A program made the position numbers and the translations under genes. Shown here one piece after another: positions 25,740-54,071 of a stretch of 64,000 nucleotides of DNA. The stretch's first letter is position 1; each line of letters starts with the position of its first letter. The notes under the pieces were generated by a model, which was not told where the DNA came from, ran no database searches, and saw only the letters and a list, made by a program, of their open reading frames with translations. Location: NCBI RefSeq assembly GCF_002688585.1, contig NZ_CP024034.1, positions 239,501-303,500 on the forward strand, given 5' to 3'. The stretch is from Candidatus Fonsibacter ubiquis. GTDB taxonomy: Bacteria > Pseudomonadota > Alphaproteobacteria > Pelagibacterales > Pelagibacteraceae.

Positions 25740-26288
25740 ATGAAAGAAAAGTTAAGGAAGTATTTTTTTTCCTTAAGAAAAAATAAATATTTTAATTTAA
25801 AAGAACAAGATTTTAGTCCATTATTTTCAGAGATTATACGATCCAAAAAAAAAATCATCGGGTCTTATTATTCTATAAACTTTGAATTAGATTTAAAAAT
25901 TTTAAATATGTTGTTATTTAAAAAAGGACTCTCGTTGACATTACCGTTTATTCACAAAGATAATAAATTAATGGAGTTTAAAAAATGGAATTCAAACGAT
26001 GTTTTGCAATTAAATAAATATGGAATACCACAAACTTTTATAAAATCTAAAACTTTAATACCTGATATTTTTTTAGTTCCACTGTTAGCTTTTGATAAAT
26101 ATGGTAATAGGCTCGGCTACGGTTCAGGATATTACGACAAATATTTTAATATGTTAAATTTAAATAAAAAAAAATTTAGAACAATTGGAATTGGTTTTTC
26201 ATTTCAAAAAAAAGATAAATTAAAAGTATTTAAAACGGACTTTTGTTTAGATGCTGTTTTTACAGAAAAAGGATTTTTAAAAATTTAA
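25740..26288 (+). CDS. fau: 5-formyltetrahydrofolate cyclo-ligase
   Basis: Converts 5-formyl-THF to 5,10-methenyl-THF with ATP, recycling a storage and inhibitory folate form. The family signature GNRLGYGSGYYDKYF near residues 122-136 is intact. At 182 residues it is a normal length. The N-terminal substrate site is Lys-rich and divergent. Stop overlaps the ymdB start (TAATG). Confidence 0.93.
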   Translation: MKEKLRKYFFSLRKNKYFNLKEQDFSPLFSEIIRSKKKIIGSYYSINFELDLKILNMLLFKKGLSLTLPFIHKDNKLMEFKKWNSNDVLQLNKYGIPQTFIKSKTLIPDIFLVPLLAFDKYGNRLGYGSGYYDKYFNMLNLNKKKFRTIGIGFSFQKKDKLKVFKTDFCLDAVFTEKGFLKI

Positions 26289-27097
26289 TGAATTTCTTAT
26301 TTTTAGGGGATATTGTTGGAAGATCCGGAAGAGATATAGTTTTATCTGAATTACCAAAGTTAAAAACTAACGAAGAAATAGACTTTGTTATTGTGAATGG
26401 AGAAAATGCTGCAGGTGGTTATGGAATTACAAAAAAAATTTGCGATGAGCTATTTTCAGTTGGGGTTGATGTAATTACCTCTGGAAATCATATTTGGGAT
26501 CAAAAAGAAACAGCAGATTTTATATCTACGGAAAAGAGATTGTTGCGACCCTTGAATTTTATGGAGGGTACACCAGGATCAGGTTGTGAGATTTATTCTT
26601 TAAAAAATAATAAGAAAGTTGCTGTAATTAATATTATGGGAAACGTTTATATGAAAAAAGCAAATGATGTTTTCAATTGTATTTCTCTAAAATTACAATC
26701 TTTAAAATTAAGCAAAGATGTAGATTTTATTATCGTTGATATTCATGCTGAAATAACTAGTGAAAAAATAGCCATGGGTCATTATCTTGATGGTCTAGTT
26801 ACATTAGTTGTAGGAACGCATAGTCATGTACCTACTTATGATTTTAGAATTTTAAATAATGGAACTGCATATCAAACTGATGCTGGCATGTGTGGAGATT
26901 ATGATTCAGTCATAGGAATGGATAAAGATGCAGCATTAAAAAAATTTTTAAAACAGCCAAATTTAGAACGTTTATCTCCTGCATTAGGTAAAGGAACTTT
27001 ATCTGGAATTAAAGTATTGGCCGACGACAAAACGGGTCTTGCAAAAGATATAAAACCCATCACAATTGGCGCTCATTTTAATCAAAGATCATTTTAA
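26288..27097 (+). CDS. ymdB: YmdB/TIGR00282-family metallophosphoesterase
   Basis: A calcineurin-like phosphoesterase related to the YmdB 2',3'-cyclic nucleotide phosphodiesterase. Metal ligands lie in GDIVGRSGRD, NGENAAGGYG, TSGNHIWDQKE and VGTHSHVPTYD. Starting at ATG 26288 gives 269 residues and the exact family start MNFLFLGDIVG; a longer in-frame reading from 26243 runs into fau and is not needed. Members act on cyclic nucleotides or RNA ends; the substrate here is unknown. Confidence 0.92.
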   Translation: MNFLFLGDIVGRSGRDIVLSELPKLKTNEEIDFVIVNGENAAGGYGITKKICDELFSVGVDVITSGNHIWDQKETADFISTEKRLLRPLNFMEGTPGSGCEIYSLKNNKKVAVINIMGNVYMKKANDVFNCISLKLQSLKLSKDVDFIIVDIHAEITSEKIAMGHYLDGLVTLVVGTHSHVPTYDFRILNNGTAYQTDAGMCGDYDSVIGMDKDAALKKFLKQPNLERLSPALGKGTLSGIKVLADDKTGLAKDIKPITIGAHFNQRSF

Positions 27098-27101
27098 AAG
27101 C

Positions 27102-27845
27102 ATGGCAGGTCATTCGCATTTTAAAAATATGATGCACAGGAAAGGACGTGCAGATAAAATACGATCTAAACTATTTACTAAGCTTTCAAGAGAAATAACT
27201 GTTTCAGCAAAACTTGGAACGCCTGATCCTGAAATGAATCCAAGGCTGCGAGCGGCTGTTCAAGCTGCAAGAGCTGCAAATATGCCTAAGGATAATATCG
27301 AAAGAGCTATTAAAAAATCACAGGGAAATATTGATAATAGTTATGAATTTTCAAGATATGAGGGATTTGGACCAGGAAGAACAGGCGTTATCATTGAAGT
27401 ATTAACTGATAATAAAAATCGTGCAGTATCAAATATCAGAACAATATTTCAAAAATTTGGCGGAACCTTGGGCGAAACAGGATCAGTCAGTTATCAATTT
27501 GAACAGATAGGGCAAATCAAGATAAAGAAAGATTTGATGAATGCAAATGACGCTTTAGAGCTGGCAATTAATGCAGGAGCAGAAGATTGCGTTACAACTG
27601 ATTTCTATCATGAAATTAATTGTAAAAAAGAAGAATTTAATTTTGTTAGAGAAAAAATAGAAAAAAAAATCAAAGATTTGAGTTTTGCAGGTCTTATTTG
27701 GAATCCTTTAAATAAAGTTAATTTAGACAAAGAAACATTTACTAAAATTGTAAATTTTTTAGAGCAGATAGAAGATGATGATGATGTTCAAAATGTTTTT
27801 ACTAATTTTGAAGTTGATGAAAAATTATTAGAAGGGGCGAATTAA
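27102..27845 (+). CDS. yebC: YebC/PmpR-family protein
   Basis: A conserved three-domain protein reported both as a DNA-binding regulator and as a translation factor acting on polyproline stalls. The start MAGHSHFKNMMHRKGRADK at ATG 27102 is the family signature (usually AGHSKWxNIxHRKGxxD), followed by AVQAARAANMPKDNIERAIKK and GFGPGRTGVIIE. The length of 247 residues is normal. In view of the atypical EF-P in the same window, the proposed role of some YebC proteins at proline stalls is worth noting. Confidence 0.94.
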   Translation: MAGHSHFKNMMHRKGRADKIRSKLFTKLSREITVSAKLGTPDPEMNPRLRAAVQAARAANMPKDNIERAIKKSQGNIDNSYEFSRYEGFGPGRTGVIIEVLTDNKNRAVSNIRTIFQKFGGTLGETGSVSYQFEQIGQIKIKKDLMNANDALELAINAGAEDCVTTDFYHEINCKKEEFNFVREKIEKKIKDLSFAGLIWNPLNKVNLDKETFTKIVNFLEQIEDDDDVQNVFTNFEVDEKLLEGAN

Positions 27846-27849
27846 AAAA

Positions 27850-28347
27850 TTGTTAGTTTTTTCTATTGATCCTGGTGTGAGCGGAGCAATTTGTGTTTTT
27901 AAAAATAAGGATATTTTAGATATATATGATGTTCCAACAATGGTTGATGGAAAAAAAAATAAAAGACAAATTAATTCTGCGCAAGTAACTCATATATTCA
28001 AAAGTTTTGTAAAAGAGGGTGACAAAGTTTCAGTAATTGTTGAACAAGTTAATGCAATGCCTGGCCAAGGCGTAACCAGTATGTTTAATTTTGGGCAGTC
28101 CTTTGGAATTATAAAAGGAATATGTGCGGCTTTAAGCTTTCCAATATATTTTGTAAGACCTGCAAAATGGAAAAAACATTTCAATCTAATTGGTTCAGTA
28201 AAAGATGCTAGCAGAACCAAAGTTATAGAAATTTATCCAACTATGTCTCCCAAGATAGCTAGAAAAAAAGATTCTAATAAAGCGGATGCAATTTTAATTG
28301 GGAAATATTTTATAGATAATTATAAAAACGATAGTTTTCATGGTTAG
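27850..28347 (+). CDS. RuvC-like Holliday-junction nuclease, phage type
   Basis: An RNase H-fold nuclease of 165 residues. Likely metal ligands are Asp7 (SIDPGVSGA), Glu65 (VIVEQVNAMPGQG), Asp141 and Asp146 (KKDSNKADAI). The DPGxSGA, MPGQGxxSMFNFGxS and RPAKWKK motifs resemble the RuvC-like resolvases of phages more than canonical RuvC, which usually opens as GIDPGLxxTG. It sits exactly where ruvC lies (after yebC, before ybgC), but ruvA and ruvB are missing from the locus. TTG is the only plausible start. It overlaps ybgC by 8 bp. Resolvase activity is inferred. Confidence 0.82.
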   Translation: MLVFSIDPGVSGAICVFKNKDILDIYDVPTMVDGKKNKRQINSAQVTHIFKSFVKEGDKVSVIVEQVNAMPGQGVTSMFNFGQSFGIIKGICAALSFPIYFVRPAKWKKHFNLIGSVKDASRTKVIEIYPTMSPKIARKKDSNKADAILIGKYFIDNYKNDSFHG

Positions 28348-28753
28348 TGCAATAAAGAAATTTTTTTTTGAAACTAAAGTTTATTACGAGGACACAGATG
28401 CGGGAGGAATTGTTTATTACGCAAATTATTTAAAGTATTTTGAAAGAGCGAGAACTGAACTTATTTATTCTATTGGCTATAATCATAAAGAATTAAATGA
28501 TAAATTAGAAATCAAAATTGTTGTCCATAAATTTACTATTACCTATAAAAAACCAATATTATTTGAAGATAAGATTATTGTTGAGAGTTTTGTAAAAAAT
28601 GTTTCAAACTTGAGAATTGAAATGGCTCAAAATATTTTAAGAGACGATGAAGTTTTAGCAGAAGCGATGGTTGAACTAGTTACTATTGATAATTTTGGAA
28701 AGCCAAAAATAATTCCTGAGGAATTAAAGGCAAAATTAAGCTCTTACATATAA
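28340..28753 (+). CDS. ybgC: Tol-Pal system acyl-CoA thioesterase YbgC
   Basis: A hotdog-fold thioesterase. The catalytic motif YYEDTDAGGIVYYANYLKYFERAR covers about residues 15-38, with the active-site Asp in DTDAGG. The length of 137 residues is normal. It precedes tolQ by 80 bp, as in most proteobacteria; its link to Tol-Pal function is by association. Confidence 0.94.
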   Translation: MVSAIKKFFFETKVYYEDTDAGGIVYYANYLKYFERARTELIYSIGYNHKELNDKLEIKIVVHKFTITYKKPILFEDKIIVESFVKNVSNLRIEMAQNILRDDEVLAEAMVELVTIDNFGKPKIIPEELKAKLSSYI

Positions 28754-28833: not shown

Positions 28834-29481
28834 ATGAATTTTGCTGCAAGTAATTTTTCTTTTATCTCATTATTCTTCAAAGCCGATCTTGTTGTAAAAC
28901 TTGTAATTATTATTTTAATTGCTGCATCGATTTACTCCTGGGCGATAATTATTGAAAAATATAAATTGTTTAAAAGAATTAATGGTTCTTCCAATTTTTT
29001 TGAGGATCAGTTTTGGTCTTCAAAATCAGCCGATAGTCTTTATAAGAAATTAGAGGATTACAATGAAGATCCAATGGCTAATGTATTTAAGGCTGGGATG
29101 GAATTTATGATTAAAAATAAATCTAGAGCTTCATCTGTACAAGAGAGAATTCAACAAGCATTGAGTGGCGCTATAGATAAAGAGATGGAAATTGTTGAAA
29201 AAAAATTAACTTTTTTAGCAACCGTTGGATCAACAACTCCTTTTATTGGTTTATTTGGAACAGTGTGGGGTATTATGAATTCTTTTCAATCTATCGCTAT
29301 TTCAAAAAACACAAGTTTAGCTATCGTGGCACCTGGTATAGCGGAGGCATTGTTTGCAACTGCACTAGGATTATTAGCGGCAATTCCTGCAGTGGTTGCT
29401 TATAATAAATTTACTAGTGACTCTAGAAAGTATTCAACGCGTTTAGAAAATTTTAGCCAATCATTTATTTCGATTATATAA
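28834..29481 (+). CDS. tolQ: Tol-Pal system protein TolQ
   Basis: Inner-membrane proton-channel subunit homologous to ExbB and MotA. Three transmembrane helices are visible (about 20-40, 125-150, 165-190); the conserved stretch TVGSTTPFIGLFGTVWGIM and the GIAEALFATALGL helix mark the channel. The length of 215 residues is slightly short but complete. The next gene begins immediately after its stop. Confidence 0.95.
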   Translation: MNFAASNFSFISLFFKADLVVKLVIIILIAASIYSWAIIIEKYKLFKRINGSSNFFEDQFWSSKSADSLYKKLEDYNEDPMANVFKAGMEFMIKNKSRASSVQERIQQALSGAIDKEMEIVEKKLTFLATVGSTTPFIGLFGTVWGIMNSFQSIAISKNTSLAIVAPGIAEALFATALGLLAAIPAVVAYNKFTSDSRKYSTRLENFSQSFISII

Positions 29482-29916
29482 ATGGGTTTCAAAATTCAGA
29501 ATAATAGATCTCGAAAACGAGAACCTATGAGTGAGATAAATGTCACTCCTTTCGTTGATGTAATGTTAGTGTTATTGATTATTTTTATGGTTACTGCACC
29601 AATGTTAACAGCAGGGGTAGCAGTTAACCTACCAGACAGTTCAGCAAATTCATTACCAGATGATAAGGAGCCTTTAACTTTAAGTATTAATGCTAAGGGC
29701 GAAACTTTTATTCAAGAAACCCAAGTTGAGATGGGTCAATTAGTTCCAAAAATTTTGGCAATGTCTAAAAATAGAACAGATACTAGAATTTATGTAAGAG
29801 GAGATAAAGCAATCGACTATGGACGAGTAATGGAAGTAATGGGATTACTTTCAAGGGCAGGTTTTACTAAAGTTGCTTTAATATCAGGCCCTCCTATTTC
29901 AAAAAGTAAAAAATAA
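29482..29916 (+). CDS. tolR: Tol-Pal system protein TolR
   Basis: ExbD-family partner of TolQ. The single transmembrane helix carries the protonatable aspartate in EINVTPFVDVMLVLLIIF, and the periplasmic domain follows. The 144-residue length is normal. Together with TolQ it harvests the proton gradient to energise TolA during outer-membrane constriction. Confidence 0.96.
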   Translation: MGFKIQNNRSRKREPMSEINVTPFVDVMLVLLIIFMVTAPMLTAGVAVNLPDSSANSLPDDKEPLTLSINAKGETFIQETQVEMGQLVPKILAMSKNRTDTRIYVRGDKAIDYGRVMEVMGLLSRAGFTKVALISGPPISKSKK

Positions 29917-29920
29917 TGCA

Positions 29921-30727
29921 ATGCAAAAAAGCCTTAAAATTTCTTTTATAGGTCATTTTGTTATTCTTTTTATCAGTAGTATAACTTTGCCTTTTTTAAT
30001 GGGGAAAGTGCAAGCCCCACTTGTTATTTCGGTAGATCTTGTTCAAATTGGGGATAGAACAAACATCCCCTATGCGCCAAAAGTTCTAGACGGAGAAAAA
30101 ACGGATAAAAAAACAAAAGATAGAGTTGTAACAAACCAAGCGCCGCCTAAAATTGTGCCTAAAGAAAAACCAGATGCTGTTCCTTTGCCTGAAAATATTA
30201 AACAAATTAAAGAGTTATTAGAGAAAAGGCAAAATCCGGTTAAAGTAGAAAATCTTGATAAGCAGACTTCAGAATTTGAAAAAAAAGAAATCTTTGATCC
30301 TAATAAAATTTCAGCTCTAATTGATAAATCAAAAAAAGATAACGCTGAAATAGAAAAGAAAACAAGTTTAGAAGCCACACAGAGCCAGCAAAAAAATGTA
30401 GTTGTTTCTAAACTCACTATAACGCAAGAGGATGCAATCAAAGCTCAAATATTTAAGTGCTGGAATATTCCTATTGGACTTCCATATAATGAAAATTTAA
30501 CTGTAAAAGTGAGAATAAAGCTTAATCCAGACGGATCGTTGATAAGTAGTGAGATTTTAGATCAATCAAGAATGAATGCAGGTGGACAAACTTATTATAA
30601 AATATTAGCAGAAAGTGCATTAAGAGCTGTTAAATTGTGCAACCCTTTAAAAGTCCCGCCAACTGAATATGAAAAATGGAAAGAGATGCAACTCAACTTT
30701 GATGCTAAAGAAATGTTAAGAGGTTAG
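29921..30727 (+). CDS. tolA: Tol-Pal system protein TolA
   Basis: Spans from the inner membrane to the outer membrane and passes TolQR force to Pal. An N-terminal anchor (residues 8-27) is followed by a charged Lys/Pro/Glu-rich segment and a C-terminal TonB/TolA-like domain from about 165 ([24 protein letters not shown]). At 268 residues the helical linker is much shorter than in enterobacteria, typical of alphaproteobacteria. Ends one base before tolB. Confidence 0.88.
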
Positions 30728-30728
30728 T

Positions 30729-32069
30729 ATGAAGAATTGTATTTATAAAATAGTTTTTTTATTTTTTTTAATTACCTCAAAATCATTTGCCCTTGTTTCT
30801 GTAGATATTACCAGAGGTAATTTAGATCCGCTACCAGTTGCAATTTCAAATTTTTATTTTGATGTAAATATTGATAACAATTTAAAAAAAACAAATATTG
30901 AAAATAAAATACCAGAATTAGTTCAAAATAATCTTACTCGATCAGGTTTATTTTTTGCTTTAGATAAGAAATCTTTTATTCAAAAACCAGAAGTAGCTCA
31001 TAATAAACCAAGATTTGAGGATTGGTCGTTTATTAAGGCACAGGTTCTTGTAACTGGTAAAATTTCTTTAGAAAAAGATGGAAGACTCAAAGTTGAATTT
31101 AAATTATGGGATGTGGTATCTGCAACAGAATTATCTGCATTAGCTTTTTATACAGCGCCGGACAACTGGAGAAGAGTAGCACATTTAATTTCTGATAAAA
31201 TTTACGAAAGACTAACTGGTGAAAAAGGTTATTTTGATACAAGAATTATTTATGTTGCTGAAACAGGTCCCAAAGTAAATAGAAAAAAAAGATTAGCTGT
31301 AATGGATCAAGATGGTTTTGGAGTTAAATATTTAACTTTAGGAAATGAAATTGTTTTAACCCCAAGATTTAGTCCAACAAATCAACTTGTCACATATATG
31401 TCCTATTACAAAAATTTACCAAGAGTTTACCTATTAAATATTGAAACTGGATTGCAAGATTTAGTTGGAGATTTTCCAGGTATGACTTTTGCACCACGTT
31501 TTTCATCGGACGGAAAAAAAATTATTATGAGTTTTGCACAAGAAGGCAACTCTGATATTTATACTATGGATATTAAAACTAGAGTTGTTGAAAAATTAAC
31601 TGATCATCCCTCCATAGACACTTCGCCTTCCTATTCTCCTGATGGAACTCAAATTGCCTTTAATTCTGATCGGAGTGGTTTTCAGCAAATTTACACAATG
31701 AAAAGTGATGGAACTAATGTAAAAAGAATTTCTTTTGGTGATGGTTTATATGGTACTCCAGTTTGGTCGCCGCGCGGCGATCTTATTGCTTTTACTAAAT
31801 TATATCGCAATAAATTCTATATCGGCGTTATGAGATCAGATGGATCAGGTGAGAGATTATTAACTGAAAATTATTATCAAGAGGCTCCTTCTTGGGCGCC
31901 CAATGGAAGAGTACTAATTTTTTATCGTGAAACTGCTTCTGACACTGCAGGTAGAGGAGGTGGAGCAAAATTATGGTCTATTGATCTAACAGGGTATAAT
32001 GAAAGATTGATCCCAACCGAAACCGATGCTTCCGACCCTTCTTGGTCCGGATTATTATCAGCAAAATAG
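30729..32069 (+). CDS. tolB: Tol-Pal system beta-propeller protein TolB
   Basis: A periplasmic protein that binds Pal and TolA. A signal peptide spans residues 1 to about 21, then the N-terminal alpha/beta domain, then a six-bladed propeller with repeated SPDG-type motifs such as [15 protein letters not shown] and [11 protein letters not shown]. The length of 446 residues is normal. Directly downstream of tolA. Confidence 0.96.
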
Positions 32070-32151: not shown

Positions 32152-32634
32152 ATGTTACAAAATAAAGTTAATAAAATTATCTTAGCGCTAGTAATGACCC
32201 TTTTTTTAGGTGCTTGCGCTACACAACAAAAAGCAACAACTCCAACAGGACCATCAGATGATGCTTATACAGGAACAGAAACAGTAAAATTTCTAGCAGA
32301 TGGCGTTCCAGATAGAGTATTTTTTGCTACAAATAAATCAGACTTAACCACCGCAGCAAGTGCAACTCTGGCAAAACAAGCAACATATTTAAAAGCAAAT
32401 CCAACTTTAAGTGTTGTTCTTGAAGGTCATGCAGATGAAAGAGGAACAAGAGAATATAACTTAGCACTTGGTGAACGAAGAGCTACAGCTGCAAAAAACT
32501 ATTTAATAAGTAATGGTATAGCAGCAAATAGAATTAAAGTGATTAGTTACGGTAAAGAAAAACCGGTAAATCCAGCATCGAATGCTTTAGCTTGGTCTCA
32601 AAATAGACGAGCTGTAACAGTTAAAACTAATTAG
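32152..32634 (+). CDS. pal: Peptidoglycan-associated lipoprotein Pal
   Basis: Anchors the outer membrane to peptidoglycan. The signal peptide ends in the lipobox LGAC with Cys22 as the lipidated residue. The OmpA-like domain contains LEGHADERGTREYNLALGERRA, the peptidoglycan-binding motif. The 160-residue length is normal. A strong intrinsic terminator follows at 32648-32689. Confidence 0.97.
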   Translation: MLQNKVNKIILALVMTLFLGACATQQKATTPTGPSDDAYTGTETVKFLADGVPDRVFFATNKSDLTTAASATLAKQATYLKANPTLSVVLEGHADERGTREYNLALGERRATAAKNYLISNGIAANRIKVISYGKEKPVNPASNALAWSQNRRAVTVKTN

Positions 32635-44291: not shown

Positions 44292-44837
44292 TTAGAATAA
44301 ATCTTGTAAAAATTCAGGTAGTCCGTTTGGATTTATCCAAGTTCCTGACTTGCCGCCTTGTTTAATAAGCAAACGAACTCCATCAATTTTAAGATCAGGA
44401 TTTACAATTTTACATAAATCATAAATAGTAACTAGTGCCGCATTCACTCCCATAATTGCCTCCATTTCAACGCCTGTTTTTGCAAATGCTGCAACCACAC
44501 AGTACGTTTCCAGTGAAAAGTCATTGGAGTTTTGAATAATTTTTGTTGAACTGTAGTCAACGGTTAGAGGATGGCATAGTGGAATAATTTCACTAGTTTT
44601 TTTTACGCCAAGAAGGGCAGCAACTTCGGCTAGAGATATAGGATCACCTTTAGGCATTTGTTTGTTTTGAATTAATTTAAATGTTTTTTCACCTACATAT
44701 ATTTTTCCCATAGCTAATGCTTTGCGGTGGGTATTTTGTTTTTGAGAAACGTCTACCATGTGAAAATTATTGTTGGTAAAAATTTCTTTTGCCCAATCTT
44801 TCAAAATAGCCGTGTCTACAATTTTAAGATTTGTCAT
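44292..44837 (-). CDS. moaC: Cyclic pyranopterin monophosphate synthase MoaC
   Basis: Rearranges the MoaA product into cPMP, the first stable intermediate of molybdenum cofactor synthesis. Motifs KGDPISLAEVAALLGVKKTS, IPLCHPL and the catalytic region TGVEMEAIMGVNAALVTIYDLCK are intact. At 181 residues it has about 15 extra N-terminal residues. One-base overlap with moaA. Confidence 0.96.
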   Translation of the reverse strand: MTNLKIVDTAILKDWAKEIFTNNNFHMVDVSQKQNTHRKALAMGKIYVGEKTFKLIQNKQMPKGDPISLAEVAALLGVKKTSEIIPLCHPLTVDYSSTKIIQNSNDFSLETYCVVAAFAKTGVEMEAIMGVNAALVTIYDLCKIVNPDLKIDGVRLLIKQGGKSGTWINPNGLPEFLQDLF

Positions 44838-45826
44838 TATCCTCCAATACTAGCTAGGTGAGGAGTTAGTCCAGTATTTCCTAACTCTAAATAATGAGAT
44901 TCTTTTTTAAAATTCAGTTGATTATTAATTAAATTTTTTAGTTCAGTAATTTGATTATCATTTTGCAATAGTGCTCGAAGAGATATTCCAGTTTCTCCAA
45001 ATAAACATAGTCTCAAATCTCCTTGGGCAGTAATTCTCAAGCGATTACAGCTTTTACAGAAGTCTTTAGAATACGGGGCTATAATTCCAAATTTTCCACT
45101 AAAATCTTTACGAATATAACTTTTGGCTGGCCCTGAATCAAAACCTGCAGTTTGATGAATCCAGTCGTTCTTTACTAAATAATCTCTAAATATATTTGCA
45201 GAGATATGATATTTTTTAAAGTAATCTAAATTATCCCCTGTTTGCATCAATTCAATATAACGAAAGTCTACATAGTTAGATTTTATAAATTGTTGCCAAT
45301 TATTAAAATCTTCCTCACTATCGTTTACGCCCTTAAGTAAAACTGCATTAATTTTAATTTTTTTAAAATTATTTTCTTGCAAAATTTTAAGACCTGCTAG
45401 GATATCTTCAAGTTTATCCATTCCAGTAATAAATTTGAATTTTTCTTTATCTAAACTGTCGATACTAATATTAATTCCATCAATTTTATTTTCTATTAAT
45501 GGTCTTGCAATTTGCTTTAAGTTGTAACCGTTTGTTGTCATTACTACTTTTTTAATACCTGGAAGAGATTTTAGATTTTTAACAATGTCTAAAAAATCTT
45601 TTCGCACAGTAGGCTCACCACCTGTTAATCTAATTTTGCAAACCCCAAGTTCAGATAAGGCAATTCCAATTCTTCTAATTTCATCAAGAGTTAAAAAAGT
45701 TTTTTTATTTTTTGGTTTTTGATAACCATCGGGTAAGCAATAGCCACATTTAAAATTACACACGTCAGTAATTGAAATTCTAAAATATGGAAAAGTTCTT
45801 CCAAAATTATCTTTTAAATGAACCAT
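44837..45826 (-). CDS. moaA: GTP 3',8-cyclase MoaA (radical SAM)
   Basis: A radical SAM enzyme that cyclises GTP. The N-terminal cluster motif is CNFKCGYC, and the second [4Fe-4S] site is in FCKSCNRLRITAQGDLRLC. The C terminus ends in Gly-Gly (SIGG), which is needed for activity in the family. About 329 residues. I chose ATG 45826 instead of the in-frame TTG three bases upstream. Divergent from the sulfite dehydrogenase gene across 124 bp. Confidence 0.96.
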   Translation of the reverse strand: MVHLKDNFGRTFPYFRISITDVCNFKCGYCLPDGYQKPKNKKTFLTLDEIRRIGIALSELGVCKIRLTGGEPTVRKDFLDIVKNLKSLPGIKKVVMTTNGYNLKQIARPLIENKIDGINISIDSLDKEKFKFITGMDKLEDILAGLKILQENNFKKIKINAVLLKGVNDSEEDFNNWQQFIKSNYVDFRYIELMQTGDNLDYFKKYHISANIFRDYLVKNDWIHQTAGFDSGPAKSYIRKDFSGKFGIIAPYSKDFCKSCNRLRITAQGDLRLCLFGETGISLRALLQNDNQITELKNLINNQLNFKKESHYLELGNTGLTPHLASIGG

Positions 45827-45950
45827 CAATTAGAGATTACAATCTATAATAGTAAGATAGTCAAAAGATTTTTTTACAACCAAAAAGTGAGTTATCTTGA
45901 AACTAAAGGGCATATAATATTTTAATAAATTAAGCTTTGAGTCACTAAAT

Positions 45951-47159
45951 ATGAAAAAAATTTCAAATTCTAACAGAAGATCTTTTTTAACTGGCTCGGC
46001 AGCTATCGCAGGAGTAGCCGCTATTTCATCATTTACAAATCTTGGCATCAATATTGCAAAGGCAGATCATTCTAGCGCAACTCCAAAAGCTACCCCAGAG
46101 TATATTAAGTGGAAAAACAGAAACGCGCTAATTATTCATACAGAAGGAACTGTAGAAACTCACCGAGATATGATTGGAAATGGAATCATTACTCCAATAG
46201 AAAATATGTACATTAGAAATAATGTTAAATCTTTAACTGATGAGCAAATAGGAGTTAGATCTGAGTGGAAGTTAGACGTACAAGGCGTTCAAAAGCCTAG
46301 AACATTTACATTAGCAGAGCTACAAAAAATGCCTCTAAAGATTACTCCCATGGTTCTTCAATGTTCAGGAAATGGTCGTAAATTTTTTGCTCATGGTCCA
46401 AGCGGAACCAAGTGGGACACTGGTAGCGCAGCCTGCGTTACTTTTTCAGGAGTTTCAGTTAAATATTTAGCAGAATTATGTGGGGGACTTACTCCTAGCG
46501 TTAAATTCATAACCGGAACAGGAGCTGATGCACCAAAAGATATTGATCCTAAAGAAGGTGCTGTTGAAAGATCAGTGCCAATTTCTACTTATGAAGATTG
46601 CTTGTTAGCCTGGGAAATTAATGGGGTTCCAATTCCAAATGCACATGGAGGACCACTAAGATTAGTTGTGCCTGGGTATTATGGAATAAATAACGTTAAA
46701 CATATTAATAAATTAGTTTTTGCTGATAAAGAGTCTGATTTTAAAATGATGTCTAATCGTTATCGAGTTTACAAGATTGGCGATAAGCCAACACCTAATG
46801 ATGGCACTTGTTGGGAGATGAATGTTAAAAGTTGGATTACTTCACCACTTACCACAGCAAAATCAGGAAAAGTTGTTTTTACTGGTGTTGCATTTAGTAA
46901 TGGTACTCCTTTAAAAAGTGTTGCTCTGTCTATTGATGAAGGAAAAACTTGGAAGAATGCAAAATTTGTTGGACCTAATCTCGGGAAATTTGCTTGGAGA
47001 CAATTTCAGTTTGAAGCAAATTTAGAAAAAGGTAATTATACAGTTTCATCTAGAGCAACTGATGAAAAAGGATCGCAACCAAAGTTAAGATTTGAGAATA
47101 ATGAGGGCTATTCTCACAATGGTTGGTTAGATCATAGTGTTAAAATTACAGTTGCATAA
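45951..47159 (+). CDS. sorA: Sulfite dehydrogenase molybdopterin subunit (SorA/SoxC-like)
   Basis: Oxidises sulfite to sulfate in the periplasm. A Tat signal with twin arginines at residues 9-10 (NRRSFLTG) shows export after cofactor insertion. The sulfite-oxidase-family Mo domain has the cysteine ligand Cys138 in LQCSGNGR, and the C-terminal dimerisation domain ends in GYSHNGWLDHSVKITV. The length of 402 residues fits SorA/SoxC. Pairing with a small monohaem cytochrome c directly downstream favours the SorAB type over SoxCD. Its cofactor needs no nucleotide, unlike that of FDH. Confidence 0.88.
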   Translation: MKKISNSNRRSFLTGSAAIAGVAAISSFTNLGINIAKADHSSATPKATPEYIKWKNRNALIIHTEGTVETHRDMIGNGIITPIENMYIRNNVKSLTDEQIGVRSEWKLDVQGVQKPRTFTLAELQKMPLKITPMVLQCSGNGRKFFAHGPSGTKWDTGSAACVTFSGVSVKYLAELCGGLTPSVKFITGTGADAPKDIDPKEGAVERSVPISTYEDCLLAWEINGVPIPNAHGGPLRLVVPGYYGINNVKHINKLVFADKESDFKMMSNRYRVYKIGDKPTPNDGTCWEMNVKSWITSPLTTAKSGKVVFTGVAFSNGTPLKSVALSIDEGKTWKNAKFVGPNLGKFAWRQFQFEANLEKGNYTVSSRATDEKGSQPKLRFENNEGYSHNGWLDHSVKITVA

Positions 47160-47490
47160 ATTTTTAATTAAATTTTCGAAAATTTTCTTAAATTTTCTAA
47201 TTCTATTTTTTTTTATTCAAGTAAGCGCAAAAGCAGATCAAGATAAAATGATCTTAGGTCTTAAAATATTTAATGAAAAAGGAAATTGTGCAAGTTGTCA
47301 TCAATTAACAAATGCAAAGTCTGAAGGAAATATTGGGCCAAGCTTAGATGATCTTAAGCCAACGCAAGCACAAGTAAAACAAGCAGTTATTAATGGTATT
47401 GGAATAATGCCGGCTTTTGGGAACGATAAAATTTTAACTCCTCAAGAAATTGATGCAGTTTCTTTCTATGTAGAAAAAGCAACTAAATAA
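47137..47490 (+). CDS. sorB: Monohaem cytochrome c subunit of sulfite dehydrogenase (SorB-like)
   Basis: Electron acceptor for the Mo subunit. A strongly hydrophobic signal segment (residues 9-31) precedes the haem-binding CASCH (Cys51, Cys54, His55); Met91 in GIMPAFG is the likely axial ligand. The class I cytochrome c fold spans about 85 residues. The start is GTG 47137 or TTG 47152, both overlapping or abutting sorA, so the two are translationally coupled. Confidence 0.85.
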   Translation: MLKLQLHKFLIKFSKIFLNFLILFFFIQVSAKADQDKMILGLKIFNEKGNCASCHQLTNAKSEGNIGPSLDDLKPTQAQVKQAVINGIGIMPAFGNDKILTPQEIDAVSFYVEKATK

Positions 47491-48231
47491 TTAAAAGAAT
47501 ATTTTTAAACCTAAACGAATTGCAACAATAAGAACTAGAACCGCAGTTAATAAAGCAAGAATGTGTGACTTTAATATTTTTATATTAAGAAAATTTCCAA
47601 GTTGACCTCCTAATAGTACAGCTAAAGGCAAATATAAATAAGGTTGTAGTTGAGAAATATTATTAAATTTTTGAATTTGTCCTAAAAATCCTGCAATAGA
47701 GTTAATTAAAATAAATAAAGACGCAGCCATAACAATCTTATTAGGCTGAGCAGCTTTTAAATTAAATAGTATAGGGGAAAGTAAAATTCCTCCGCCAATT
47801 CCAACAATTCCAGACACTAAGCCAATTATTGCCCCAATAAAAACAGCAGAAAAAAATGGAATTTTTTTTATAATTTGATTTGTTAATTTATATTGTCTTG
47901 TCTGTATTAAAAGTAAAAGACTGCTTATCGTTAGGCAAAAAAATAATAAAATTTGAAAAAAATCTTTTGTTATTTGAAATTTTCCTCCAATATAAGCAAG
48001 AGGTATTGAGCCTAAAAAATATGGAGTTAAAAATTTTATATCTAAATTTCCAGCTCTTATATAGTTAAAACAATTTCCGCTTGCGACAATAATATTGCAA
48101 GTTAATGCTATAATTGGAATTAGCAAATATTCTACGTCATAAATTGTAAGTAATGCTAAATATGAAGTTCCTCCTGCAAAACCAACACTTGCGTAGATAG
48201 CTGCAACTAAAAAAAAAATTATGGATAGCAT
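47491..48231 (-). CDS. tauE: TauE/SafE-family sulfite/sulfonate exporter
   Basis: A 246-residue membrane protein with about seven to eight helices. The family pattern appears twice: AIYASVGFAGGTSYLALLTI near the N terminus and LVSGIVGIGGGILLSPILF in the middle. TauE/SafE members export sulfite, sulfonates or related organic acids. Lying tail to tail with the sulfite dehydrogenase (no intervening base), a role in sulfite disposal is plausible but not proven. Confidence 0.85.
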   Translation of the reverse strand: MLSIIFFLVAAIYASVGFAGGTSYLALLTIYDVEYLLIPIIALTCNIIVASGNCFNYIRAGNLDIKFLTPYFLGSIPLAYIGGKFQITKDFFQILLFFCLTISSLLLLIQTRQYKLTNQIIKKIPFFSAVFIGAIIGLVSGIVGIGGGILLSPILFNLKAAQPNKIVMAASLFILINSIAGFLGQIQKFNNISQLQPYLYLPLAVLLGGQLGNFLNIKILKSHILALLTAVLVLIVAIRLGLKIFF

Positions 48232-48266
48232 ATTTTTTAATCTATAGGTATTAATGATACATAATT

Positions 48267-48791
48267 ATGAAAACTGATAGTACAAAAAAATTTATACCCG
48301 TTAATATTGCTGTCTTAACTATTTCAGATACTAGAAATGAGTCAAATGATACATCGGGTAATATTTTAGTTACTAAAATTAAAGAATTAGGACATACCGT
48401 TGTTAGTAAAAAAATTTTAAAAGATGATAAAACAGATATTAAAAAAACTATTCTTGCATGGTGCGACGAAGCAGTTGATATAATTATTAGTACAGGTGGC
48501 ACTGGTTTAACAGGTCGGGATATAACCATTGAAGCCTTAGATGAAATTAAAGATAAAGATATTCCAGGATTTGGTGAAATATTTAGAATGCTTAGTTACA
48601 AAACAATTGGCACTTCTACCATTCAATCTCGCGCTCAAGGAATTATATGCAAAGGAAAATATATATTTGCCTTACCAGGATCTTCTGGAGCAGTTACCGA
48701 TGCTTGGGAGGGAATTTTAAAATTTCAATTAGACTCTCGTTTTCAACCTTGTAATTTTATTAATATTATTCCACGCCTAAAAGAAAAGTAA
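48267..48791 (+). CDS. moaB: Molybdenum cofactor biosynthesis protein MoaB
   Basis: MogA/MoaB-fold protein thought to adenylylate molybdopterin before MoeA inserts molybdate. The signatures are NIAVLTISDTRNESNDTSG, IISTGGTGLTGRDITIEAL, and the C-terminal ALPGSSGAVTDAWEGIL. The length of 174 residues is normal. It ends 2 bp before the convergent moeA stop. Confidence 0.93.
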   Translation: MKTDSTKKFIPVNIAVLTISDTRNESNDTSGNILVTKIKELGHTVVSKKILKDDKTDIKKTILAWCDEAVDIIISTGGTGLTGRDITIEALDEIKDKDIPGFGEIFRMLSYKTIGTSTIQSRAQGIICKGKYIFALPGSSGAVTDAWEGILKFQLDSRFQPCNFINIIPRLKEK

Positions 48792-48793
48792 TA

Positions 48794-50035
48794 TTAAATT
48801 GAATTTGTATAGTTTGGAAAAAAACAATCAATTATATCTCCTTTTTTAAAGCTTTGTTTACCTGCTGGAAAAGCAGCCCAAATATTAGACTGAACAAAAG
48901 GTTTTATTCTAAATGAATCCTGTCCTTTCAAAGCCTCAAGATGGAGGGTGCCTGAACTTGAAGTACTCAATTTGGCTTTGACAAAATGAGTCATATTTTT
49001 CTTTTTGAAATAAGTATTTTTTAAAATTGCTTTAATTGGCCTTTCAGTCTCAACCCCTAAAATATTTAGCAAATAAGGATTTACAAAAAATCTGTAGCAA
49101 GCAGCTGTTGAAATAGGATTGCCCGGTAGTCCAAAGATTGCCTTATCTTTAATTTTTGCAAATAACACTGGTTTTCCAGGTTTGATTTCAACGCCTTTAA
49201 AATAATTTGAAAGTTTAAAAGTTTTTACAATGCTTGGAATAAAATCAAATTTACCAGCTGAAATTGCGCCTGATGTAATAATTATATCTATCTTAGATTT
49301 TAACATTTTATTGATCTGATTTTTAAAAATAGATGCATGATTATCTCTTAAAATTCCTCCGTTAATGAAATTAAACAAAAAGTTTTCATTTAACGACTTA
49401 ATATAGGGACCATTTGAATTTCTAACTTTCCATGCTGGAATATTCTCACTATTTGAGATCTCATTACCGGTTGAAAAAAATAGTATATTTGGTTTTTTTT
49501 TAACTTTAATTTTTTTAATTCCTAAGGTTTTTAAAGCTAAAATATGATTAGAGTGAATAATTGCTCCTTTTTTAATAATTAGATTATTTTTTTTATAATC
49601 TGATCCTAAAAATCTGACGTGTTGATTTTTGTTAATTCTCTTATCAACAATTATATATTTTGGATTGTCTTTATTTGGATAAAACACAATTTGTTCAATT
49701 GGAATAATAGTATCAAATCCCTTAGGAACAATTCCACCTGTCATTATTTCAATAGTTTCAAATTTTTTGATTTTTTTAGTAATAGGTTTTGTTCCTGCAA
49801 TCATTGAACCTATAATTCTAAATTTTTGAGGCGAATTTTTATTTAAAAATTTAGTGTCTTTAGAGTTTACTGCAAAGCCATCAAAGGCCGCATTATTTGC
49901 AGCTGGATAATTATAATTTGAAAATATATTTAAAGACAAAACTCTATTTAAAGCATTTTCACAATTAATAATTTCATCTCCAATTTTAATGGGTGCTTTT
50001 TTTAAAATTTGTTGAGAGCGTTTATAACTAATCAT
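48794..50035 (-). CDS. moeA: Molybdopterin molybdenumtransferase MoeA
   Basis: Inserts molybdate into adenylylated molybdopterin. Conserved motifs include NAAFDGFAVNSKD, IMTGGIVPKGFDTIIPIEQ, TSGAISAGKFDF and FGLPGNPIS. The length of 413 residues is standard. It overlaps mobA by 8 bp and is followed tail to tail by moaB, so the two steps before and after are encoded on opposite strands. Confidence 0.94.
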   Translation of the reverse strand: MISYKRSQQILKKAPIKIGDEIINCENALNRVLSLNIFSNYNYPAANNAAFDGFAVNSKDTKFLNKNSPQKFRIIGSMIAGTKPITKKIKKFETIEIMTGGIVPKGFDTIIPIEQIVFYPNKDNPKYIIVDKRINKNQHVRFLGSDYKKNNLIIKKGAIIHSNHILALKTLGIKKIKVKKKPNILFFSTGNEISNSENIPAWKVRNSNGPYIKSLNENFLFNFINGGILRDNHASIFKNQINKMLKSKIDIIITSGAISAGKFDFIPSIVKTFKLSNYFKGVEIKPGKPVLFAKIKDKAIFGLPGNPISTAACYRFFVNPYLLNILGVETERPIKAILKNTYFKKKNMTHFVKAKLSTSSSGTLHLEALKGQDSFRIKPFVQSNIWAAFPAGKQSFKKGDIIDCFFPNYTNSI

Positions 50036-50642
50036 TACTTTTTATTATCTCTTTTGCTTTTTCTAAGTCTTCTTTAGTATTAATATTAAAAAAAGGATCG
50101 TTATTTTTAAATTCTAAGTTAATCGTCTTAACCCCAACTTTATTAGCCCAGTCCTCAACTTTTCGCTCTCCTTTGTTAACTAAATCATCCTCTAATCTAT
50201 TTAATAGTTCTAGCGACCATAGCCCGAATATATTGTGCCTTTTATCATTAGATTTAATAAAAAAAAGTTTGCTCTGTTTTTCGTTAATATTATTTAGGAA
50301 ATCATGTAGGTGTTTTTTTTTAAAAAAAGGCGTGTCAGAAGGAAAGGTTGAAATCCATTTATATTTCTTATTATTTTCTTTAATCCATTTCATAGCACTT
50401 AAAACACCACCTAATGGACCTAAATTTTTTTTATAATCTTCAATTTTATTAATTTTTTTTGAATTAAAAAACTTGATATCGTTATTTGCAATAATTAAAA
50501 TTTCATTAAACTCATTCAAAATTTCTAGAAGAATATAATCAATTAATATTTTACTTTCTAATTGAACTTGAGATTTATCTTGGCCAAATCTCTTGGATTG
50601 CCCTCCTGCTAGTACAACTCCTAAAATGCTGTTATAATCCAT
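50028..50642 (-). CDS. mobA: Molybdenum cofactor guanylyltransferase MobA
   Basis: Adds GMP to Mo-molybdopterin to form the MGD cofactor required by formate dehydrogenase and other DMSO-reductase-family enzymes. The GTP-binding motif VVLAGGQSKRFGQDKS lies at residues 9-24, with FPSDTPFF as the catalytic aspartate region. Length 204 residues. Divergent from the NifU-like gene, across 43 bp. Confidence 0.93.
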   Translation of the reverse strand: MDYNSILGVVLAGGQSKRFGQDKSQVQLESKILIDYILLEILNEFNEILIIANNDIKFFNSKKINKIEDYKKNLGPLGGVLSAMKWIKENNKKYKWISTFPSDTPFFKKKHLHDFLNNINEKQSKLFFIKSNDKRHNIFGLWSLELLNRLEDDLVNKGERKVEDWANKVGVKTINLEFKNNDPFFNINTKEDLEKAKEIIKSND

Positions 50643-50685
50643 TATTCTTAATATAAATCATTAAAACACCAATTAAAGATATATA

Positions 50686-51084
50686 ATGGATTTAAAAATT
50701 TTAGAAATTGCTTCTCACGCTGAAAATAAAAAAGAACTTAGCAATCCTACCCATTCCTCAAAAAACAAAAATCCGATTTGTGGAGACGAAATGGAAATTA
50801 GTTTAGTTGTAAAAAAAAATATCATTGAGGATATGGCTTACAATTGTAAATCTTGTGTATATTGCCAGGCTTCTGTTAGTTTACTTTCAAGAACAATTAA
50901 AGATCAAAGTATTGATACATTTAAAGACTTTTTTCAGTTTGCAGAAAAAATGTTTACCGACAATAATTTAAATATTCAAAAAAAATGGAATGGATTTGTA
51001 GAAATATTTAATAAAAAAAATTTAGCTAGAAAAGAATGTTTGCTTCTACCTTTAAGAACCGTTGCAAAAGCGCTAAAAATATAA
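50686..51084 (+). CDS. NifU/IscU-like iron-sulfur scaffold protein
   Basis: A 132-residue protein with the three cysteine sites of IscU/NifU scaffolds: Cys32 in NPICGDEM, Cys57 in SCVYCQAS, and Cys118 in RKECLLLPLRT. Extra cysteines at 54 and 60 flank the middle site. It heads the run that continues with the HPP protein, fdhD and the formate dehydrogenase subunits (gap of 0 bp to the next gene), so it may supply clusters to this Fe-S-rich enzyme. That role is inferred from position. Confidence 0.8.
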   Translation: MDLKILEIASHAENKKELSNPTHSSKNKNPICGDEMEISLVVKKNIIEDMAYNCKSCVYCQASVSLLSRTIKDQSIDTFKDFFQFAEKMFTDNNLNIQKKWNGFVEIFNKKNLARKECLLLPLRTVAKALKI

Positions 51085-51561
51085 ATGATTAAAATAAACA
51101 AATCTAATTTAGTAAAAGCTTTCATCGCAGGTTTGTTTTCAATTTTGACCATTGGAACTTTAACACTGTTAACTTACGAAACTACTTTAGGAGTTTTTTT
51201 AATTGCCTCTTTTGGATCTTCGATGGTTTTATTATTTGGGTTTCCTGAGAGTCCTTTTTCTCAACCCAAGAATGTTTTTTTTGGACATTTTTTAACAGCC
51301 TTAACAGGAATAGTTTTTTTAAAACATATACCATTGCCCATTTATATTAATATTGCTCTGGCCGTCGGATTTGGAGTTTTTTTTATGATACTTTTTAACG
51401 TGGTTCATCCACCTGCAGGAGGGAATCCTATAATTGTAATTATAGGAAACGTTTCTTACCAATATTTAATTAATCCAATTATTTTTGGTAGTTTAATAAT
51501 TTTAATTTTTGCAATTTTAACAAATAAATTCTTATTAAAGAAGAATTACCCTATAAAATAA
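51085..51561 (+). CDS. HPP-family integral membrane protein
   Basis: A 158-residue protein with about five hydrophobic helices. The family motifs SPFSQPKNVFFGHFLTAL and the eponymous HPP in NVVHPPAGGNPIIVI are both present. A cyanobacterial/chloroplast member of the family has been linked to nitrite transport. Set between a NifU-like gene and fdhD, it could move formate, nitrite or another small anion; nothing in the sequence decides this. Confidence 0.85.
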   Translation: MIKINKSNLVKAFIAGLFSILTIGTLTLLTYETTLGVFLIASFGSSMVLLFGFPESPFSQPKNVFFGHFLTALTGIVFLKHIPLPIYINIALAVGFGVFFMILFNVVHPPAGGNPIIVIIGNVSYQYLINPIIFGSLIILIFAILTNKFLLKKNYPIK

Positions 51562-51565
51562 TTGA

Positions 51566-52402
51566 ATGAATTCTAAATACAAAGTTTTAAAATTTAAATC
51601 TAATAATTTTAAAAATGTTGATGATCTAGTTTCAATTGAAGAACCACTAGAAATATCTATTAAATATAAAAATAACGATAATTGGGTTACGCAAATCTTA
51701 TCAATTACCATGAGAACCCCTGGCCATGATGAAGATTTGGTAAGGGGTTTTTTATTCAATGAGCAAATTGTTCAGGATGTTAAGCACATTCAATCTATAA
51801 AAAGTTTTGGAGCAAAAGTTGGCCAGTATAAAATTCAGAATAAAATATTAGCAACATTAAATAATTCAAAAAATATAAATATCACTAAAATTAAAAGAGA
51901 TTTTTTAACAAATTCTTCTTGTGGCGTTTGTGGTAAATCTTCTCTAGATGCATTGGAAATTATAAAAACAAAGAAACCATCATTAGCGGAACCAAAAATA
52001 TCTAAAAAAGTAGTTTTGCAATCGCCGGATATTTTAAGAGATAATCAGTCAGAATTTTCTAAAACAGGGGGTATTCATGCAAGCGGCTTATTTTTAGATA
52101 ATGGTAAATTAGTTGAAATTCGAGAGGATGTAGGTCGACATAACGCTCTTGATAAATTGGTCGGAAGAATTTTAAAGAAGAAAAACCTTAATCCAAAAAA
52201 ACAATTTATTGCCTGTTCTGGTCGACTTAATTTTGAATTAGTACAAAAAGTTTTGATGACTAATATTGGAATTATGATCGGTGTAGGCGCTCCTACAAGC
52301 CTCGCTATTGATTTAGCCAATAAATACAACATGACTTTAGTCGGGTTTGTAAAAAAAGATAGTTTTAATATTTATTCAAATAAACAAAAAATAATCATAT
52401 AA
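51566..52402 (+). CDS. fdhD: Formate dehydrogenase accessory sulfurtransferase FdhD
   Basis: Transfers sulfur from a cysteine desulfurase to the Mo cofactor of formate dehydrogenase, which is needed for activity. The sulfur-carrying CxxC loop is in TNSSCGVCGKSS; GIHASGLF, REDVGRHNALDKLVG and GVGAPTSLAIDLA are family signatures. The length of 278 residues is normal. It lies immediately before the structural genes it serves (13 bp). Confidence 0.96.
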   Translation: MNSKYKVLKFKSNNFKNVDDLVSIEEPLEISIKYKNNDNWVTQILSITMRTPGHDEDLVRGFLFNEQIVQDVKHIQSIKSFGAKVGQYKIQNKILATLNNSKNINITKIKRDFLTNSSCGVCGKSSLDALEIIKTKKPSLAEPKISKKVVLQSPDILRDNQSEFSKTGGIHASGLFLDNGKLVEIREDVGRHNALDKLVGRILKKKNLNPKKQFIACSGRLNFELVQKVLMTNIGIMIGVGAPTSLAIDLANKYNMTLVGFVKKDSFNIYSNKQKIII

Positions 52403-52415
52403 AAGATAAAAAATT

Positions 52416-54065: not shown

Positions 54066-54071
54066 TTATCC

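Follow-up and report, generated by a model that had tools for sequence, protein, structure and literature searches.

A stretch of 64,000 nucleotides from Candidatus Fonsibacter ubiquis (hereafter, the window) carries, between yebC and the tol genes, a gene that with a probability of about 0.83 codes for the housekeeping Holliday junction resolvase of the cell. In this reading, the enzyme is of phage type, belongs with PHROG 1770, and resembles the chloroplast resolvase MOC1; it would have replaced ruvC in an ancestor of the SAR11 family, with ruvA and ruvB lost and junctions left to RecG and spontaneous migration. SAR11 ranks among Earth's most abundant groups of bacteria. The original prediction had proposed that a viral-type enzyme displaced the cellular resolvase in situ and works without RuvAB, and this proposal is supported by the make-up of the locus, by the absence of ruvABC, and by the match to PHROG 1770.

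The predicted resolvase gene and its locus in Pelagibacteraceae

The predicted gene for a phage-type Holliday junction resolvase of the MOC1/RuvC superfamily (27850–28347 of the window, forward strand; 165 aa) runs from a TTG start to a TAG stop and sits in the place of ruvC-ruvA-ruvB. Upstream on the same strand, it is separated by a gap of 4 bp from yebC (27102–27845, ATG at 27102), which follows a conserved further neighbour, a ymdB-like phosphoesterase gene (26288–27097). Downstream, the ybgC thioesterase gene (28340–28753) shares its first 8 bp (28340–28347) with the resolvase gene and is followed, again on the forward strand, by tolQ (28834–29481), tolR (29482–29916), and three genes that we named by eye from their translations as tolA (29921–30727), tolB (30729–32069), and pal (32152–32634). 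Neither ruvA nor ruvB lies between the resolvase gene and its neighbours at the locus, and we detected no terminator-like site in the yebC–ybgC interval of the coding strand. This arrangement of a RuvC-like gene between yebC and ybgC-tolQ, including the overlap with ybgC, had been read correctly from the open reading frames, and both of the phage-like motifs that had been pointed out, DPGVSGA and MPGQGVTSMFNFGQS, are present in the protein.

Purifying selection acts on the gene: dN/dS is 0.017–0.113 in six pairs of Fonsibacter-type loci (dS is saturated in some), and the active site is conserved. Its third-position GC (0.176) matches that of yebC (0.182) and ybgC (0.19), and these values, together with family-wide synteny, identify the open reading frame as a real gene.

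Our set of 148 related genomes is comprised of 89 from Pelagibacteraceae, the family of the window (f1), 53 from another family of the same order (f2), and six other alphaproteobacteria as outgroups. The resolvase is found in the majority of f1 genomes (81/89, and 35/37 of the good ones), in none of the 53 f2 genomes, and in none of the six outgroups. The eight f1 genomes without it, which include the good genomes G033 and G064, have no tolQ match either and were therefore dropped as real exceptions, the resolvase locus being probably unassembled in them; the tolQ search of these eight lacked an internal positive control, but the same query matched 9/10 genomes in another search. A scan of named genomes gave 578 loci, of which the best 80 were taken; 78/80 show the order yebC–resolvase–(ybgC)–tolQ, and the other two are cut by a contig end. 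All of these best 80 belong to Pelagibacterales/SAR11 or to untitled alphaproteobacterial single cells, with the nearest among them coming from MAGs of Ca. Fonsibacter and from single cells of Alphaproteobacteria. The gene is thus inherited throughout the family. As a side observation, the marine f1 genera examined (e.g., L052–L064) have no ybgC between the resolvase and tolQ genes, while the Fonsibacter type and certain other f1 genera retain it.

Elsewhere in the window, ARAGORN calls a tmRNA on the reverse strand (8–318, tag ANDKFALAA) with an asterisk, which we take to denote the permuted form. At 44292–56840, we recognized by eye genes for molybdenum cofactor, for a SoxC-like sulfite dehydrogenase accompanied by a cytochrome, and for a formate dehydrogenase; these agree with the mention of sulfite oxidation in LSUCC0530, a freshwater SAR11 strain in culture for which a closed genome of 1.16 Mbp is reported (PMC6018831).

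Predicted fold and active site

Scans of the protein against Pfam and NCBIfam at E up to 10 returned no match to a RuvC family or other relevant model. Among the PHROGs, the protein matches phrog_1770, labelled "Holliday junction resolvase", over its full length (E 8.9e-33; residues 1–158 of 165 against profile positions 4–151 of 158), with weaker matches to two further phage resolvase families. The best phmmer matches in the PDB are all MOC1 (NtMOC1 at 2.2e-16 and ZmMOC1 at ~3e-8), and the best RuvC is at 0.056. An AlphaFold2 model, computed with the window protein and 43 viral relatives as input (mean pLDDT of 89.0, pTM of 0.86), predicts an RNase H-like resolvase fold. When this model is searched with Foldseek, MOC1 chains come top (E ~3e-12, TM 0.77–0.86), with RuvC following (E 9e-7 and above), and VIA-align gives a Z of 22.4 for NtMOC1 (1.8 Å over 159 residues) and of 15.4–17.7 for RuvC structures (the best, 17.7, at 2.6 Å over 153). 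In both sequence and predicted fold, the likeness to MOC1 exceeds that to RuvC.

The catalytic tetrad of NtMOC1 is reported to consist of D116, D118, E175, and E258, with D183 in the base-recognition loop reading cytosine (PMC7078210), while K229 and H253 are described as assisting catalysis in ZmMOC1 (PMC11183143). In the phmmer alignment to the PDB, the four tetrad residues fall on D7, G9, E65, and D146 of the SAR11 protein, D183 falls on Q73, K229 on K118, and H253 on S142. In an alignment of 131 SAR11 rows (130 loci plus the window), the three predicted metal ligands Asp7 (codon at 27868–27870, forward strand as for all codons given here; 128/131 rows, with 3 gaps), Glu65 (28042–28044; 131/131), and Asp146 (28285–28287; Asp in 130/131 and Glu in 1/131) are conserved, as is Lys118 (28201–28203; 131/131), the equivalent of the catalytic Lys229. 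The position of NtMOC1 D118 is held by Gly9 in 128/131 SAR11 rows (3 gaps) and in 31/31 aligned rows of a further alignment. What is kept from MOC1 is thus three of the four acids and the lysine, with Gly in place of the second Asp as in the DPG of RuvC; this Asp is described as absent from RuvC too (PMC11183143). The earlier claim that all four acidic ligands are in place therefore stands for D7, E65, and D146, which align with catalytic acids of MOC1, but not for the fourth, as D118 corresponds to Gly9, and NtMOC1 can dispense with the residue that aligns with D141.

The loop that follows Glu65, QVNAMPGQG (28045–28071, forward strand), is equivalent to the base-recognition loop of MOC1, with Met70 and Gln73 at the positions of Tyr180 and Asp183. 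Both are invariant in the 131 rows, and the cytosine-reading Asp is thus replaced by Gln throughout. Column 142, the site of the metal-C histidine (H253 in ZmMOC1), is variable in the SAR11 rows (S/V/A/N/L). Because the second Asp is Gly and the base-recognition Tyr/Asp are Met/Gln, the specificity, and possibly the chemistry, may differ from those of MOC1.

Judged from its sequence and predicted model, we place the protein in the phage family PHROG 1770 and refer to it as MOC1-like, without assigning it to either MOC1 or RuvC. The family includes proteins of Salmonella phage epsilon15, Planktothrix phage PaV-LD, and IMG/VR contigs; its nearer members are ~38–49% identical to the SAR11 protein, and its members have the same D-E-K-D/E active-site positions and the DPG motif, and most of them the AMPGQG loop. 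Unlike these phage genes, the SAR11 gene is chromosomal, lies in the cell's ruv slot, and is passed on vertically in the family, being part of neither a phage nor a prophage. MOC1, the chloroplast resolvase (also conserved domain cd22992, a name taken from the note of a phage record), provides the nearest solved structures by sequence and fold, but the plant proteins sit on a long separate branch, and it is the Gly at the second Asp and the differing specificity residues that lead us to write MOC1-like instead of MOC1. With alphaproteobacterial RuvC, the protein shares the RNase H fold (as predicted), the chromosomal slot, and the DPG motif; it differs in having no match to the curated ruvC model, in forming a separate clade, and in having no RuvA and RuvB partners in its genome. 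A diverged RuvC is ruled out by the lack of a model match and the separate clade, as is YqgF/RuvX by the lack of a PF03652 match and by the genome's own RuvX lying elsewhere (G000:C1:439473-439868).

Absence of ruvABC and other occupants of the slot

The window's genome is a single closed contig of 1,160,202 bases with 99.88% completeness, and in it the models for ruvC (TIGR00228) and ruvA (TIGR00084) have no match. For RuvB_N, the best match in the closed genome has an E of 1.9e-7, versus 3.2e-79 or better in the six outgroups, and across f1 and f2 it is never better than 3.9e-10; as these scores are far below those of the outgroups, we read the weak matches as other AAA+ proteins. The presence of ruvABC elsewhere in the genome, which would speak against a displaced ruvC, is ruled out by these three profile searches. 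Among the 148 genomes, the ruvA model exceeds its cut-off in the six outgroups only, with short sub-threshold matches, covering about 30 positions, in 17 f1 genomes, and the ruvC model matches seven, namely the six outgroups and the f1 genome G055. The ruvC of G055 (G055:C12, L043/L090) was rejected as probable MAG contamination because the GC of its contig stretch is 0.607, compared to 0.327 at the resolvase locus. The ruv genes are missing from the window locus, as had been noted, but their absence is not confined to it: within our sample, ruvABC is absent from f1 and f2 and hence order-wide.

The search for recG and yqgF that had been suggested as a check finds both genes in the window's genome. 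Matches to recG occur in 147/148 genomes, some of them weak and to related helicases. In the closed genome, recG is full length and scores 618.9 bits, below the NCBIfam cut-off of 659.4, as do most of the genomes searched, several outgroups included.

That the resolvase occupies the old ruvCAB slot is indicated by the gene order in 20 ruvC regions from other alphaproteobacteria. In 16 of these, yebC lies within 1 kb upstream of ruvC; the full order yebC-ruvC-ruvA-ruvB-ybgC-tolQ is found in 3/20, and yebC-ruvCAB-tolQ without a ybgC match in three more.

The same slot is filled differently in f2. There, the order is ymdB–yebC–X–tolQ–tolR, where X is a different open reading frame of 123–127 aa in 9/9 loci examined, annotated here as a putative PD-(D/E)XK, Hjc-like resolvase of phage type (L081–L089; e.g., L084:862–1230, reverse strand). 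These slot proteins match the Pfam phage endonuclease model PDDEXK_15 above its cut-off (32.0 and 33.7 bits versus 27) and Hjc (PF01870) below it (17.3 and 13.0 bits versus 21.1), and a match is also seen to PHROG 244, labelled as a RusA-like resolvase. Residues E14, S38, D50, E60, and K62 are invariant in 9/9, giving the E…D…ExK motif. This second type of resolvase is present in 43/53 f2 genomes (12/12 good ones) and in 0/89 f1 genomes. Among named phages, the best relative is the Holliday junction resolvase encoded by Roseobacter phage CRP-810 (50.9% identity), and viral contigs reach 53–57%; the model of one viral relative (53% identical by profile alignment; residues 39–47 poorly predicted) is most like archaeal Hjc, at a modest Z of 7.9. 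With an hhalign probability of 0.6%, the f1 and f2 slot proteins are unrelated in sequence, and they are predicted to differ in fold; the likeness to Hjc/PDDEXK_15 phage resolvases is one of the f2 protein and not of the window protein. We also observe the word GATTCG ~10–20 bases upstream of the PD-(D/E)XK start codon in 9/9 f2 loci (L081–L089); it contains GATTC, a GANTC site, and could be part of a promoter.

In a class-wide sample of 385 alphaproteobacterial genomes (315 good), the ruvC model matches 353 (294/315 good), whereas the resolvase profile matches 11, consisting of five f1 genomes, four scattered ones, and two marginal ones. Of the scattered genomes, G450, G334, and G385 have the MOC1-like gene in addition to ruvC, and in G450 it lies near an integrase and a primase-polymerase. 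The matches in G224 and G460 (E 2.3e-4 and 9.5e-4) were not counted as relatives; both genomes carry ruvC, and the G224 match is probably RuvC itself, with a ruvC match in the same stretch. G258 (family f119; 1.2 Mb, 80% complete) has no ruvC match and shows the order ymdB–yebC–MOC1-like–ybgC–tolQ–tolR. Its MOC1-like gene (L194:5805–6305, reverse strand) overlaps ybgC by 4 bp and encodes a protein with 32% identity to the window protein and a PHROG 1770 match at 7.7e-22. Other genomes of the class sample without a ruvC match are G160, G164, G171, G173, G190, G229, G252, G267, G274, G291, G295, G301, G311, G314, and 12 others; outside f1, the good genomes without such a match number 16/315.

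We lean toward regarding the yebC-(ruvCAB)-tol locus as a resolvase socket into which phage-type enzymes, namely a MOC1-like, a PD-(D/E)XK, and a second MOC1-like one, have been plugged more than once, in SAR11 without RuvAB.

Viral relatives, alternative histories, and significance

The viral link that had been proposed is supported. In addition to the PHROG 1770 match, relatives of the resolvase are carried by 107 phage records, and 578 viral loci were confirmed as related, of which 80 were kept; viral relatives are up to 47–49% identical to the window protein. Among the phage records listed (of the 107), none is from an isolate pelagiphage. In one record, MW202545.1, the resolvase gene (L091:601–1056, 152 aa) had been left unannotated.

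Our tree of 70 rows contains 19 f1 sequences (from 50 f1 loci), 34 viral sequences (from 79, kept at under 75% identity), 11 phages, four other alphaproteobacteria, and two plants. The f1 sequences form one clade (100/99) among the viral rows, and the deep order is without resolution. A tie to plants and plastids beyond the shared superfamily was dropped, as the plant branch has a length of 2.96 and no supported partner. In a tree with 18 alphaproteobacterial RuvC rows, RuvC forms one group (100/100) and SAR11 another (100/99), in keeping with the original prediction that the protein falls outside cellular alphaproteobacterial RuvC. These sequences exclude a position of the window protein inside the RuvC clade and leave the root unfixed: a tree with SAR11 and RuvC together on one side of a branch has a slightly better fit than the unconstrained one (p-AU 0.59). 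Since the trees do not fix the root, the direction of transfer has to be read from distribution, and the many diverse phage members, compared to one bacterial family and a few further genomes in the class, suggest that it was from phage to cell.

We propose that, in an ancestor of this SAR11 family, a small, metal-dependent nuclease with an RNase H fold moved into the ruvC slot and assumed the role of RuvC. By analogy with MOC1, the enzyme would act as a dimer, bind four-way junctions without a partner protein, insert the loop that follows Glu65 into the crossover, and cut two opposed strands by means of Asp7, Glu65, Asp146, and Lys118. As such a stand-alone resolvase would need no delivery by RuvAB, ruvA and ruvB could have been lost along with ruvC, the acquisition presumably preceding the loss of ruvAB, and junctions would be positioned by RecG and spontaneous migration.

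Could the gene instead be a domesticated phage nuclease with another job, such as trimming branched DNA or anti-phage activity, with junctions left to YqgF/RuvX or to resolvase-free dissolution? We consider this improbable. YqgF/RuvX is indeed present in the genome and could share the role, MOC1-like genes are common in phages, where one (L102) adjoins a phage exonuclease gene, and the scattered genomes G450, G334, and G385 have theirs beside a retained ruvC, that of G450 near an integrase. However, the SAR11 gene sits exactly where its relatives have ruvCAB, is co-inherited across f1, and is mutually exclusive with the other resolvase of the sister family f2, while YqgF is reported to co-occur with RuvC/RecU in most genomes and to have had no proven resolvase activity at the date of that survey (PMC1193525). 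The reverse direction of transfer, in which the MOC1-like line is an old cellular relative of RuvC that was kept in SAR11 and acquired from cells by phages, is about equally improbable. It draws on the joint side of SAR11 and RuvC not being rejected (p-AU 0.59), by which SAR11 could branch deepest, but must contend with the profile matching only 11/385 class genomes (five of them f1 and two marginal) against many diverse members in phages. As for an artefact of assembly or annotation, the chance is negligible and is refuted by the same locus recurring in 80 named records and in a closed genome.

A different question is whether MOC1-like enzymes entered the slot once, in an ancestor of f1, f2, and G258, with a later swap to PD-(D/E)XK in f2, or in separate acquisitions. 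A single acquisition strikes us as rather unlikely, though less so than the alternatives above. In its favour, the slot and the loss of ruvC are common to all three, and a tree of the neighbouring genes (YmdB, YebC, TolQ, TolR), which recovers f1+f2 (100/100), f1 (100/99), and f2 (100/100) with G258 outside, does not reject G258 joined to f1+f2 as a sister to the order (p-AU 0.156). The resolvase itself points the other way: a clade of the SAR11 and G258 proteins is rejected (p-AU 0.024, a result weakened by the long branch of G258 and by the group having been named after the tree was seen), the two proteins share just 32% identity, and the neighbouring genes set G258 apart from the order.

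The replacement of RuvC by an unrelated resolvase is already known from RecU, an analogous enzyme that stands in for RuvC in Firmicutes (PMC1193525). Genomes with RecU are described as keeping RuvAB, with recU seldom beside ruvAB (PMC1193525). The strongest precedent comes from E. coli, whose RusA resolvase, a relative of the phage 82 enzyme, is reported to replace RuvABC if RecG is present and to be normally unexpressed (PMC5055574). The SAR11 case differs from both in that RuvAB is gone and the substitute is a fixed gene of the family in the ruv slot. By analogy, a RusA–RecG bypass fixed by evolution would resemble what is seen here: RuvAB gone, RecG retained, and a resolvase of phage type in the place of the ruv genes. 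According to the survey of 117 bacterial species in which prophage-encoded proteins were raised as possible resolvase substitutes, RuvAB is absent from just two of the genomes that have RecA, and both of these carry RecG (PMC1193525).

A search of the open-licence PMC literature found no description of ruvABC loss or replacement in SAR11. One SAR11 core cluster is listed as "Putative Holliday junction resolvase" in a form not distinguishable from YqgF (PMC3686209), and the available excerpts of an RNase H superfamily survey (PMC3985635) and of a review on recruited mobile elements (PMC8987985) make no mention of SAR11. To judge from open-licence full texts in PMC, three things are new: that SAR11 has lost RuvABC order-wide, that a MOC1-like enzyme stands in at the ruv slot, and that f2 has a second fold at this position.

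RuvAB is reported to be almost as universal as RecA (PMC1193525), and here two whole families of one order are without all three ruv genes. If our reading is correct, an ecologically central bacterial group described as abundant (PMC12113158) completes recombination by means of a phage enzyme and does so without the canonical RuvAB motor. It would then be a natural counterpart of the laboratory bypass by RusA and RecG, and the need for RuvAB would become testable where the resolvase requires no delivery. With three occupants and two folds in one position, the locus makes a good case for phage genes replacing core cellular ones.
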